Assembly: GCA_008363265.1 (NCBI GenBank)
Contig: RHKR01000017.1
Location: 1-15,402 of the forward strand
DNA length: 15,402 nt
Source of the DNA: Chlorobiota bacterium
GTDB taxonomy: Bacteria > Bacteroidota > Ignavibacteria > Ignavibacteriales > Ignavibacteriaceae
Direction: 5' to 3'
Shown: piece by piece, positions 1 to 14,015 of the stretch
Position numbering within the stretch: position 1 is the stretch's first letter
Layout of the letters: each line of letters begins with the position of its first letter
Program-made: the position numbers and the translations under genes
Notes under the pieces: generated by a model
The model's database searches: none
What the model was told of the DNA's origin: nothing
The model's input: the letters and a program-made list of their open reading frames with translations, nothing else

Positions 1-534
1 TTCCTCGGCGGTCAGGTTCGCAATCTTCTCGAGCCGGTGGTTCTGCTCTTTTTCGAGCTCTTCAAGTTCTTCTTCTTTCTGACGGATGGCGCGCTGTTTG
101 TCGTTGACTGACTGCTCAATGCGCTTGATCTCACTCTCTTTTGAGCGCACCTGTTCTATCTTCCTGTCGATCTGGTCTTCGCGGGAAGTGAGTGATTTTT
201 CCATGTTCTGGATGTTTTGGCGCTTCGAGTTGTATTCGTTGTCAAACTCAACTTTTTTCTTGTACCACTCGTCCTTTACCTCGAGTAGTTTTTCACGCTT
301 TATATTGTTGGCTTCTTTTTCAGCGTCTTTCAGAAGTTGAGCGACTCTTTCTTCTGCAGAGGCGATTATCTGTTTTGCCTTCTCCTCCGCGGCTGAAATT
401 ATCTCGCGTCCTTTATCTTCGGCGGCAGAAATGCTCTTCTTGCCAAAACGGTTGTTTATGTACCAACCGAGGTAGAAAAAGACAACAGTTGTCGCTAAAA
501 ATATCAGAATGATGATTATGATATCATCTGTCAT
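1..534 (-). CDS. rny: Ribonuclease Y, N-terminal part (runs off left edge)
   Basis: RNase Y is a membrane-anchored endoribonuclease that initiates mRNA decay. Only the first 178 codons are present and the reading frame is open to base 1. Visible are an N-terminal membrane segment (about residues 4-22, a run of Ile/Leu/Val/Phe after MTDD), then a long charged coiled coil rich in Glu, Lys, Arg and Gln, including repeats of the type SAAEEKAKQIIASAEERV. The last residues, NLTAEE, match the region just before the KH domain in this family. KH and HD domains would lie beyond the window. ATG at 534 is chosen because it directly precedes the membrane segment. The gene follows zapA and the structured intergenic RNA on the same strand. 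Family assignment is from recognition of the anchor plus coiled-coil pattern and is quite secure. Confidence 0.9.
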   Translation of the reverse strand, partial: MTDDIIIIILIFLATTVVFFYLGWYINNRFGKKSISAAEDKGREIISAAEEKAKQIIASAEERVAQLLKDAEKEANNIKREKLLEVKDEWYKKKVEFDNEYNSKRQNIQNMEKSLTSREDQIDRKIEQVRSKESEIKRIEQSVNDKQRAIRQKEEELEELEKEQNHRLEKIANLTAEE

Positions 535-546
535 TGAATGTAGTCT

Positions 547-759
547 CCGTAATGTATAAAGCCGTTCCGGCCGGAAGAGTCATTTAAAGAAAGAACCCTT
601 TAATGACATCTTGGGTAATTGACCCTGAGCTTTTTGCTTCCACCGTCACAAATAAATGTGAGCCCGCGAGCGGGTTGAGGCCTGCAATACGCCTTTGGAG
701 TCCAAATCCCATTGAATTTACATATGGTTCTTTTATGTATACATCAACCGACCGTACGG
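547..759 (-). ncRNA. Structured intergenic RNA candidate, possibly 6S RNA (ssrS-like)
   Basis: The zapA-rny gap is too long and too structured for a simple spacer. On the minus strand AAAGAACC (733-726) pairs perfectly with GGTTCTTT (597-590). Further in, TGGG pairs with CCCA and GACTC pairs with GGGTC, separated by symmetric internal loops (about 14x14, then 5x5 nt). Apical hairpins follow, with stems CCCG/CGGG and TCACA/TGTGA. Further out, ATGTATA (near 744-738) can pair with TATACAT (558-552), and CCGT (759-756) with ACGG (550-547). This long, interrupted hairpin of about 150-210 nt with a central bulge resembles 6S RNA, which lies directly downstream of zapA in proteobacteria. A TAnnTTTG box overlaps the zapA stop codon upstream. 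The RNA reading is inference; a leader element of rny or a small coding gene remain possible. Ends are approximate. Confidence 0.45.
565..576. repeat. 12-bp perfect palindrome
   Basis: TTCCGGCCGGAA is a perfect palindrome between the structured RNA candidate and the rny start. On the minus strand it overlaps a small GCCG-GAA-CGGC hairpin followed by TTTATA, which could act as a weak terminator or processing signal for the upstream RNA, or be a protein-binding site. Neither role is demonstrated. Confidence 0.4.
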
Positions 760-767
760 CAAAACTA
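760..767 (-). promoter_or_regulatory. Candidate -7 box (TAnnTTTG) for the intergenic RNA
   Basis: TAGTTTTG matches the Bacteroidota -7 consensus TAnnTTTG exactly and its TAG is also the zapA stop codon. No convincing TTG -33 element lies 17-23 nt upstream, so this is a half-supported promoter. Transcription would start near 754, just ahead of the outer inverted repeat. Confidence 0.3.
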
Positions 768-1061
768 AGACGGACTGTGAGTGGAGTGGGGTTCGAGAAG
801 CAATTTCAACGATTTAATCTTCTCAGAAGCTTTCGATGTGATCTCTTTGTTTCTGTCTCTCTCAATAAAATAGTCGTAAGCGATGTTAAGAGCAGCAATT
901 ACGGCTACAGTTTGCACAGGTTGATTGGGCAGCTCCTGGCGGGTGTCCTCCATTACCTGATCAACATACTTGGCGAGTTCTTTCGCAAGATCCTCGTTAT
1001 CTACTAAAAGAGAGTATTCTTTATCGAATATTTTAATTTTTAGCTTCTTTTTGTCACTCAT
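765..1061 (-). CDS. zapA: Cell division protein ZapA
   Basis: ZapA binds FtsZ at the division ring and promotes filament bundling. The 98-residue product has the family layout: an N-terminal beta segment (KLKIKIFDKEYSLLVDNED), a helix beginning LAKELAKYVDQVMED, a hydrophobic stretch (TVAVIAALNIAYDYF), and a C-terminal coiled-coil segment. Length is normal for the family. ATG at 1061 is the natural start, 23 nt after the coiled-coil gene upstream, so the two are probably cotranscribed with pheST. The downstream gap to rny holds the structured RNA candidate. Confidence 0.85.
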   Translation of the reverse strand: MSDKKKLKIKIFDKEYSLLVDNEDLAKELAKYVDQVMEDTRQELPNQPVQTVAVIAALNIAYDYFIERDRNKEITSKASEKIKSLKLLLEPHSTHSPS

Positions 1062-12208: not shown

Positions 12209-13525
12209 TCACTTCACCACCGCAACCTTTACACTTTTAACTCCTTTCCCGCTTTTCATCAGCAGAAAATAGACACCGGTTGAAAGTTTTGTGGTGTTGT
12301 ACACGATCTCCTGATCCCTGGCCCCAACCGAGCCGCTCAAGACAGTCGATACTTTTTCACCGAGGGCGTTATAGAGCGCGAGCTCGACATTCTGCTCTGA
12401 ACCGGGGTTGAAGCGGATGATCATATTGTCCCGCGCGGGATTGGGGTGTACAGAGAGCTTTTCAACCGCGGAGGTTTGAATTGATTCATCCCTGTTTGAT
12501 GTTACGGTGAAGACCGTGGATGCGGTTGTTATTATTTCAGGGTCTTTGGGCTGACCGGAGTTCATTCTTGTGAACCTCTCGGCTTCAAGGGTTGGAAGTA
12601 TGGCCAACCTTGCAGTGATCTGAGGTTTAACAGTCTGATAACAAAGCTCAGCGGTGATGGTGAGATCGCCATTTTCCGATGGTTTTATCCTGTAGGTTAC
12701 AATATCGGAACCGCTGCCTTCGATCGAGGCGTTGTAGTTGAAGTTTGGATCGTCGCCAACACCCTCGATTGAAGTGCTGTCATAACTGACGTGTGAAGCT
12801 ACAAATCCCTTTGGCGGTAAACGGTTGTCTTTAATGTATGACGCGGCCCTGAGGAGAGTGTTTGTTACATCACCGTTCACATCTACGAGTACACCTTCAT
12901 ATATCTGGGTTCTGTCCGCATTGCGGATAATATCATGGTGCGGCTCATAGACAGAATCAATACCGGTAATTTCACCGTCACTTCCCCACTCTCCCGATTC
13001 AAAAACTGTCTGGCCTGTGGAGTTCGTCACTTTGAGGTGTAGCCACATCCGTCTTATTGGTATTCCCGAAGGTAGCTTGTGACCTGAAAGGTTGGTGGTT
13101 ACCACTTTTATATCGAGTGAATCGTTATTTGGTTGAGCGGATATCTCTATCTGAGCGGTCCGCGAGAGCATTTTTGTTGTCCGGGCTAGCGTGCTGTCGA
13201 AGTGATCAGGACCGGCGGTTACGCCGAGTGAATCAATATTGTTTTGCAGCATCCGGAGCATCATTTTGTTGGCACCGACAAATTCATGCTTAAAGAATGG
13301 GGCGTGCGTAGCTGTGTGCCAGGCGGGAATTGAGGAAATATCAAGTGAGTCGGAGATTGATGGCATATGACAGGTCTGGCATTCAACTCCTGATGTACTA
13401 TAAATACTGTTCTTCCACTCCAGGTAAGGCGTCTGTTCAGGGAAAATTCCCGCCTGCTGATTGTTGTAGTCGAAATAGGGAGTAAAAAGTGTGTGGCATG
13501 TAGCGCACAATTCGGAATTGTTCAC
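12209..13525 (-). CDS. 3' portion of the broken cytochrome: hemes 4-5 and T9SS domain
   Basis: 438 codons are open from a GTG at 13525, but this is unlikely to be a true start: there is no signal peptide and the codon before it (CAT, His) extends the conserved HVNNSELC motif. It carries CATCH (residues 7-11) and CQTCH (49-53), a histidine-rich stretch WHTATHAPFFKHEFVG that probably supplies distal heme ligands, then long beta-type segments. The last ~75 residues, from about KLSVHPNPARDNMIIRF to VKVAVVK, are a Por-type C-terminal sorting domain directing export by the type IX system. Without the 5' half this product could not reach the periplasm. Confidence 0.8.
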   Translation of the reverse strand: MNNSELCATCHTLFTPYFDYNNQQAGIFPEQTPYLEWKNSIYSTSGVECQTCHMPSISDSLDISSIPAWHTATHAPFFKHEFVGANKMMLRMLQNNIDSLGVTAGPDHFDSTLARTTKMLSRTAQIEISAQPNNDSLDIKVVTTNLSGHKLPSGIPIRRMWLHLKVTNSTGQTVFESGEWGSDGEITGIDSVYEPHHDIIRNADRTQIYEGVLVDVNGDVTNTLLRAASYIKDNRLPPKGFVASHVSYDSTSIEGVGDDPNFNYNASIEGSGSDIVTYRIKPSENGDLTITAELCYQTVKPQITARLAILPTLEAERFTRMNSGQPKDPEIITTASTVFTVTSNRDESIQTSAVEKLSVHPNPARDNMIIRFNPGSEQNVELALYNALGEKVSTVLSGSVGARDQEIVYNTTKLSTGVYFLLMKSGKGVKSVKVAVVK

Positions 13526-14015
13526 ATGGGCCGTAGATTATCCTGGTCGTATCGATCTTGTAGTTTCCGCTATAAGACTGAGCCATCCCGAGGTTTGCGG
13601 GATCGATCTGGTGACAGAGTGTACAGCTTATGCCATCTTTCCCCAGGGGATCGTTGCGCATCATCTCCAGGGTATAATTAGTTAAGCCGTCATGCTTTGC
13701 CTGAGTGTTTCCCATCGGGGCATGACATCTCGTGCAAATATTCTCGATGGCGTCTTTCATCGCCGGGAACTCATGGGTTTCCTCCGAGACCATCGCCTGC
13801 CAGAGTGGATCCTTGGATGAATTGGCCATCATAGTGCTGCGCCAGTGCGTTGGTGGCGACACATCCACTCCGTTATGTGTTAGAACTGTTGCCGTTCCGG
13901 TATGGCACATGGCACAATTCCCCGATGCCGTAAACATCGATGAGTTAAATGACGGAAGTGGTGTCTGCGCGATCAGAACTGAGGTTAAGATAAGCAAGAA
14001 AAACAGTTGTTTCAT
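13437..14015 (-). CDS. 5' portion of the broken cytochrome: signal peptide and hemes 1-3
   Basis: 192 codons from ATG 14015. A signal peptide (MKQLFFLLILTSVLIAQ) is followed by three heme-binding motifs: CAMCH (34-38), CTRCH (94-98) and CTLCH (131-135). Residues after TTRIIYGP (about 155-163) no longer resemble a cytochrome and end at a stop inside the downstream frame. If translated, it would be a short exported three-heme protein lacking the sorting domain. The spacing THWRSTMMANSSKDPLWQAM is typical of this multiheme family. Confidence 0.85.
   Translation of the reverse strand: MKQLFFLLILTSVLIAQTPLPSFNSSMFTASGNCAMCHTGTATVLTHNGVDVSPPTHWRSTMMANSSKDPLWQAMVSEETHEFPAMKDAIENICTRCHAPMGNTQAKHDGLTNYTLEMMRNDPLGKDGISCTLCHQIDPANLGMAQSYSGNYKIDTTRIIYGPCEQFRIVRYMPHTFYSLFRLQQSAGGNFP

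Follow-up and report, generated by a model that had tools for sequence, protein, structure and literature searches.

The window (the whole 15,402-nt stretch of DNA analysed here) contains a 230-nt spacer at 535-764, between zapA and rny, with both genes on the minus strand. Does this spacer encode an RNA of its own, and if so, which one? At Rfam's own cut-offs the window returned three tRNAs only. The initial annotation, made from this one sequence, proposed a 6S-like RNA. 6S RNA is a mimic of an opened promoter that sequesters RNA polymerase. Our analysis found homology to 6S RNA, a covarying fold, a steady bubble size, a competing hairpin and synteny. We consider it very probable that minus strand 555-765 is a 6S RNA, predicted to act as a polymerase-holding rod with pRNA-driven release. 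The proposed identity was upheld because three largely independent lines agree on it: the convergence of the Rfam 6S model (RF00013) on this locus across relatives, covariation, and the position between zapA and rny. The features referred to below are as follows.

1..534, minus: rny (RNase Y), downstream neighbour, truncated by the window edge (PF12072, RNase_Y_N, 2.3e-33; TIGR03319 below its curated cut-off, because the protein is cut by the window edge)
545..548, minus: Shine-Dalgarno-like GGAG of rny, directly 3' of the RNA, read from the sequence
555..765, minus: 6S RNA (ssrS) gene, very probable, about 205 nt, approximate ends (RF00013 full-length alignment, match to the lineage model R1, covariation)
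561..574, minus: closing helix, 3' arm CCGGCCGGAACGGC (helix 1)
579..607, minus: predicted competing hairpin, 3' bubble strand GTCATTAAAGG (597-607) with CTTTAAATGAC (579-589), P2 3' strand in the loop (folding energies)
590..597, minus: P2, the downstream helix, 3' arm GGTTCTTT (helix 2)
598..611, minus: central bubble, 3' strand, 14 nt, expected -10-like side (family bubble sizes)
612..711, minus: apical (internal) arm with TGGG/CCCA, GACTC/GGGTC, and ATTGCAGGCC (679-688) with GGAAGC (636-641) (helices 3-7, invariant columns)
712..725, minus: central bubble, 5' strand, 14 nt, expected pRNA template side (family bubble sizes)
726..733, minus: P2, 5' arm AAAGAACC (helix 2; 96.0% paired, two-sided changes in 5 of 8 pairs)
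748..760, minus: closing helix, 5' arm GCCGTACGGTCGG (helix 1; 85.0% of cells paired, two-sided changes in 10 of 12 pairs)
765..1061, minus: zapA (cell division protein ZapA), upstream neighbour (PF05164, 6e-16; NF010724 below its curated cut-off)

Locus and fold in the window

The zapA stop codon is followed by 5 nt and then by the first C of the closing-helix CCG, and rny starts 27 nt past the closing-helix CGG. On the other side of zapA, between it and pheT, the minus strand at 1085-1408 encodes a 107-aa coiled-coil-like protein. A similar short ORF stood ahead of zapA in all 14 other loci examined. The ZapB Pfam model PF06005 scored this coiled-coil gene below its cut-off in nine of ten cases and was unlisted in the tenth. 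Elsewhere in the window, two overlapping out-of-frame ORFs with CxxCH motifs were seen on the minus strand (12209-13525 and 13437-14015), and the product of the downstream ORF carries a T9SS type A sorting domain (TIGR04183) at its end. A frameshift, genuine or introduced in assembly, may have split a single multiheme-cytochrome-like gene into the two.

Most of the pairings named in the initial annotation are present in the window. The 8-bp helix P2 joins AAAGAACC (726-733) to GGTTCTTT (590-597), 136 nt from start to start, and is followed by the 14x14 internal loop as claimed, with 712-725 opposite 598-611. Beyond it come TGGG (708-711) with CCCA (612-615), the 5x5 loop, and GACTC (698-702) with GGGTC (621-625). 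The two short stems held for the window and less so for the family: the U-A pair of TGGG/CCCA was kept in only 15 of 59 spacers, and the register of GACTC/GGGTC is the window's own, not the family's. In the same arm, ATTGCAGGCC/GGAAGC is among the most conserved stretches, and the Rfam 6S consensus GcAaGCC/GGAAgC aligns there. The proposed outer pairing of ATGTATA with TATACAT was abandoned, because it would cross the real closing helix and draws on a poorly conserved stretch. ATGTATA (738-744) lies inside the helix GCCGTACGGTCGG/CCGGCCGGAACGGC, which the first list of pairings did not include, and TATACAT (552-558) lies outside it, in the poorly conserved stretch ahead of rny; with the closing helix between them, the two copies are excluded as an outer stem. 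In the family alignment A2 described below, the window lacked the family pairs 41-304, 96-237, 98-235, 105-231, 106-230 and 107-229.

The minus strand from 555 to 760 folded at -65.3 kcal/mol, compared with -51.4 kcal/mol for dinucleotide shuffles (sd 4.4; z -3.14; none of 200 as good), and the segment 540-770 gave a z of -2.63. This excess is modest evidence taken alone. The conservation of the fold among relatives is much stronger evidence than the energy of a single sequence.

Conservation and covariation among relatives

Relatives were collected with 11 aligned ZapA proteins as the query, which gave the named loci (the best 80 of 138). These were nearly all from metagenome-assembled genomes named Ignavibacteria, Ignavibacteriales, Ignavibacteriaceae, Melioribacteraceae or Bacteroidetes. 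Because the named loci were chosen by ZapA, the presence of zapA is given there, while that of rny is not. The sequence set comprised 93 sequences (92 loci and the window); named and unnamed loci overlap, and some genomes occur twice. In 90 of the 93, zapA was followed by rny on the same strand. Three sequences yielded no spacer: L011 and L012, without zapA, and L069, at a contig end. Removal of identical spacers and of those of at least 300 nt reduced the 90 to 84 unique ones. Alignment A2 consisted of 59 spacers below 80% identity, each trimmed by 15 nt at the rny end. Two loci, L010 and L046, had spacers of 379 nt, about 140 nt longer than the others, and were excluded from the alignment; they are probably one genome sampled twice. 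Among the 83 other unique spacers, the nearest to that of the window was 78% identical and the rest were at most 54% identical, so the set was suitable for a covariation test.

RNAalifold predicted 25 pairs from the 59 spacers, 19 of them with compensatory changes. A fuller structure of 39 pairs, which took in the closing helix and P2, had two-sided changes in 27. It paired 89.8% of cells, against 38.1-52.4% with the partners slid, a comparison in which it is favoured since it was partly read from the same alignment. Its covariation score was 0.341 against 0.183 (sd 0.007) in shuffled alignments, and none of 500 shuffles was as high on any of five measures. Covariation in related genomes thus stood above both the shuffled and the slid controls. 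P2 (A2 columns 64-71/266-274) was paired in 96.0% of cells over the 59 spacers. It had been named from one sequence alone, yet five of its eight pairs carried two-sided changes; one position was G-C in 34 of the 59 spacers and A-U in 23. Such pairing across 59 diverse spacers also bore out the expected conservation of the spacer. For 20 loci outside the order the figures were 21 of 25 pairs and a covariation score of 0.505 against 0.161 (sd 0.018), in an alignment that was fitted to the model.

The bubble was steady in size. Its 5' strand had a median length of 14 nt (interquartile range 13-15, range 6-18, n=59) and its 3' strand a median of 14 nt (interquartile range 14-15, range 12-21, n=59). 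The architecture first suggested, a helix, a large central bubble and a second helix, is therefore one that covariation has kept, with a median bubble of 14/14 nt. No clear conserved box of a dedicated 6S promoter was found at the end of zapA, and a promoter scan found 2 candidates against 1.3 expected from shuffles, no more than the background. No intrinsic terminator was found 3' of the RNA on the minus strand (one was found on the plus strand), and a U-run lay within 12 nt of the RNA end in 13 of 84 unique spacers.

Rfam models, gene position and distribution

With an open threshold, in an 801-base search of positions 300-1100, all of RF00013 (1-187 of 187) aligned to 555-765 on the minus strand with 27.0 bits (E 0.002), below its gathering score of 46.4 bits. 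The 6S-Flavo model RF01685 (gathering score 85 bits) had no match at E≤10 in the same positions 300-1100. The suggested check against Rfam gave a 6S alignment below the cut-off and no 6S-Flavo match. In a whole-genome search, RF00013 had no match in the window's own genome; searches spanning more than 40 genomes ran with stricter filters. Over the 59 order-level genomes, the window's own included, it gave 12 matches at E≤10, the best with 40.8 bits, and none of the 59 reached the cut-off. The ten best (E 7.8e-7 to 0.79) all lay in the zapA-rny spacer, which is hard to explain except as 6S; the last two (E 5.4 and 7.3) had neither zapA nor rny alongside. None of 20 named loci reached the cut-off, and 7 of 16 loci outside the order matched at E≤0.5, leaving 9 without a match. 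Among 198 phylum genomes, 34 matched at E≤0.01 and one exceeded the cut-off: locus L181 of genome G093, a class-level relative, with 47.1 bits, zapA before the RNA and rny after it.

We also built a covariance model, R1, from the zapA-rny spacers of the order. Its matches within the order are therefore partly by construction, while those outside are not. On the window it matched 549-765 on the minus strand with 140.6 bits, by construction; a weak plus-strand match (13.5 bits) we read as a mirror image of the palindromic fold. Of the 59 order-level genomes, 58 gave a single strong R1 match at E≤1, with 111.6-187.6 bits, and the next best match anywhere had 27.4 bits. The remaining genome, G006, also lacked a zapA match, so the locus is probably missing from its assembly. 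The best score, 187.6 bits, was that of G033, the genome of the long-spacer locus L010. At E≤0.01, R1 matched 177 of 197 class genomes, the order included, and missed 20; in the phylum it matched 209 of 395 and missed 186, and the weakest of these matches may be chance. In all 28 genomes outside the order that had both a ZapA and an R1 position among the matches listed, the two lay on one strand and the RNA began 35-303 nt past the ZapA match. In the 20 non-order loci, zapA flanked the RNA in every case (19 by the first ZapA profile, L187 by a wider one) and rny in 19, the exception being L175. The RF00013 and R1 positions coincided in all 31 genomes with both among the matches listed, out of the 34 matched by RF00013; of the others, G094 and G127 were also matched by R1, and G067 was not.

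The zapA-rny slot also holds 6S RNAs that Rfam recognises. At E≤0.01, RF01685 matched 30 of the 247 phylum genomes searched, 12 of them over its cut-off and none in the window's class. In 29 of these 30 loci the flavobacterial RNA lies between zapA and rny, the same slot as in the window. The 6S-Flavo model did not match the window, and R1 matched only one of the 30 loci at the right place (L158), with three other matches elsewhere. Recognised 6S RNAs in this slot, in the RF01685 genomes and in L181, make the window RNA their positional ortholog. The window itself scores below the Rfam cut-off of RF00013 and a class-level relative at the orthologous locus scores above it; orthology and anatomy, rather than its own score, are what place the window RNA in the family.

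With E. coli ssrS and B. subtilis 6S-1 (RF00013), the window RNA shares a closing arm, P2, a large central bubble and an apical arm with GCAGGCC/GGAAGC. R1 found no match in E. coli ssrS. The place directly after zapA, which had been noted as typical of 6S, is indeed common to 6S-Flavo and E. coli: in E. coli K-12, ssrS lies 41 nt after zapA on the same strand, as the window RNA likewise lies directly downstream of zapA. The gene that follows differs, being fau in E. coli and rny in the window. In an excerpt of PMC7641849, 6S genes of β- and γ-proteobacteria are described as always immediately after zapA. If the coiled-coil protein encoded ahead of zapA is ZapB, the order zapB-zapA-6S would match that of the β/γ-proteobacteria. 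Bacteroides thetaiotaomicron, a member of the Bacteroidetes, also has a 6S RNA; a passage of PMC7366714 reports that this RNA, and evidence for pRNAs, were detected by dRNA-seq.

Competing hairpin, alternative readings and implications

The stretch immediately past P2 complements the 3' bubble strand, and pairing between the two leaves the 3' strand of P2 mostly in the loop. Over the 59 spacers this competing hairpin had a mean minimum free energy of -9.49 kcal/mol, compared with -4.84 kcal/mol (sd 0.32) when the halves were swapped. A gapless pair count gave a smaller excess, which we attribute to bulges in the stem: 0.580 against 0.532 swapped at offset 0 (sd 0.019; largest of 1000 swaps 0.599) and 0.545 against 0.515 at offset 1. 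We relied on the energy test instead, by which the predicted hairpin is well supported within the order. In the window itself, the minimum-energy fold (-65.3 kcal/mol) contained the hairpin and lacked the AAAGAACC/GGTTCTTT helix of P2. With P2 enforced, the energy was -63.8 kcal/mol, 1.5 kcal/mol worse than the hairpin state. P2 is accordingly predicted to have the structural potential to open in favour of this alternative, and the two states, 1.5 kcal/mol apart, resemble an E. coli-type bistable arrangement set in another register.

Two other rearrangements were considered. Bubble self-closure brought no gain (-1.98 for a spacer's own 5' and 3' bubble strands, -1.90 swapped, sd 0.19), and a hairpin on the 5' side, enclosing the 5' arm of P2, was weak (-2.02 against -1.07 swapped, sd 0.12) and is not claimed. 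Outside the order, P2-containing segments still favoured their own partners (-17.4 against -13.8 swapped, sd 0.6, n=20), the fold of the 3' segment was weaker (mean z -1.39, n=20, against -2.96, n=59), and the 3' hairpin varied in length, being long or short depending on the locus. In L168-L172 (family f26) the 3' bubble strand forms a short hairpin in place of the long one.

Alignment to the E. coli pRNA start, which we take to be U44, placed a nucleotide other than U at that position in the window. In E. coli, as described in an excerpt of PMC8876501, pRNA synthesis unwinds P2 and a 9-bp hairpin in the 3' bubble strand contributes to release; B. subtilis 6S-1 uses a bubble-collapse helix instead, and the same excerpt describes a short hairpin of the 3' bubble strand, like that of L168-L172, in the free 6S-1 RNA. 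By that account, E. coli 6S and the window RNA both have a 3'-bubble hairpin that competes with P2. They differ in that the P2 3' strand pairs with the 3' bubble strand in E. coli, whereas in the window it would be mostly loop.

By analogy with E. coli and B. subtilis 6S, we infer discrete transcription, polymerase binding, pRNA synthesis, release and growth-phase control for the window RNA. The closing helix, P2, the open 14x14 bubble and the apical arm would form a rod that mimics a melted promoter. As growth slows, the RNA would occupy the holoenzyme of housekeeping sigma and RNA polymerase. When nutrients return, the polymerase would transcribe the 5' bubble strand and the AAAGAAC arm into a short pRNA. 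In doing so it would open P2, and the freed P2 3' strand would come to lie in the loop of a hairpin in which the 3' bubble strand pairs with the stretch following P2; this hairpin may help to eject the polymerase.

In another reading, the structure is a cis-acting leader in the 5' UTR of RNase Y that controls rny, for example in RNase Y autoregulation, and is not 6S. The RNA ends a median of 31 nt before the rny start, with a Shine-Dalgarno-like motif ahead of rny in 80 of the 84 unique spacers, and rny comes next in 90 of the 91 order-set sequences with zapA (the 91st lies at a contig end, and some genomes occur twice), as it does in 19 of the 20 non-order loci. However, a leader of this kind leaves the apical arm with 6S consensus letters unexplained, and the 6S model matches over its full length in the window and several relatives, with L181 over the cut-off. 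Locus L175 (G169) keeps the RNA and zapA in the absence of rny from the locus, with ymdB (PF13277, 1193-2038, minus) in its place, and E. coli has fau following ssrS. We therefore regard the leader reading as improbable.

Still less probable, in our judgement, is a 6S-derived RNA of changed function that binds the polymerase core and not the sigma holoenzyme, like the RNA described as Ms1 in Actinobacteria in a passage of PMC9130861. The low RF00013 scores would fit it, and the form of polymerase bound is at present assigned by analogy; but the steady open bubble, P2 and the release-type hairpin, all features of the holoenzyme cycle, have been kept, and the slot is that of 6S-Flavo. A chance fold of an ordinary spacer might be suspected from the single-sequence energies, which are only moderately unusual (z -2.6 to -3.1). 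Against it stand the covariation over 59 spacers, above shuffled and slid controls, the conservation, the single strong copy per genome and the convergence of the Rfam model, and its probability is negligible. The 6S reading accounts for the locus best.

The main 6S survey is reportedly that of Wehner et al. 2014. Among the papers searched, none joined 6S RNA with the Ignavibacteria, and a prediction in that survey is possible. A passage of PMC7366714 cites it for pRNAs predicted in Bacteroidetes, so it may already contain predictions of parts of the present finding. The window RNA belongs to a known family, and the copy of this lineage sits below library thresholds. With this analysis a whole lineage gains its missing 6S RNA: RF00013 exceeds its cut-off in none of 59 order genomes and one of 198 phylum genomes, and R1, the lineage model, detects the RNA in 58 of 59 (E≤1) and 209 of 395 (E≤0.01), in samples and at thresholds that differ from those used for RF00013. 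It also links the flavobacterial 6S variant to canonical 6S through gene position, offers a simple rule for diverged 6S RNAs in the phylum, namely to search the zapA-rny gap, and, through the competing hairpin, allows the pRNA release model to be tested in a further lineage.

The most interesting observation is the order zapA-6S-rny across the sampled phylum, with its zapA side common to the Proteobacteria. This placement may be ancestral or convergent. Tentatively, and with considerable doubt, we suggest a joint picture in which the zapA-6S pair would predate the split of Bacteroidota and Proteobacteria, the 6S RNA of Bacteroidota would double as the rny leader, with one transcript cut between mature 6S and rny mRNA, and the release hairpin, whose loop holds the P2 strand, would add a variant mode of ejection to those of E. 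coli and B. subtilis. If this is true, a ribonuclease, a transcription brake and a Z-ring regulator would be set together.
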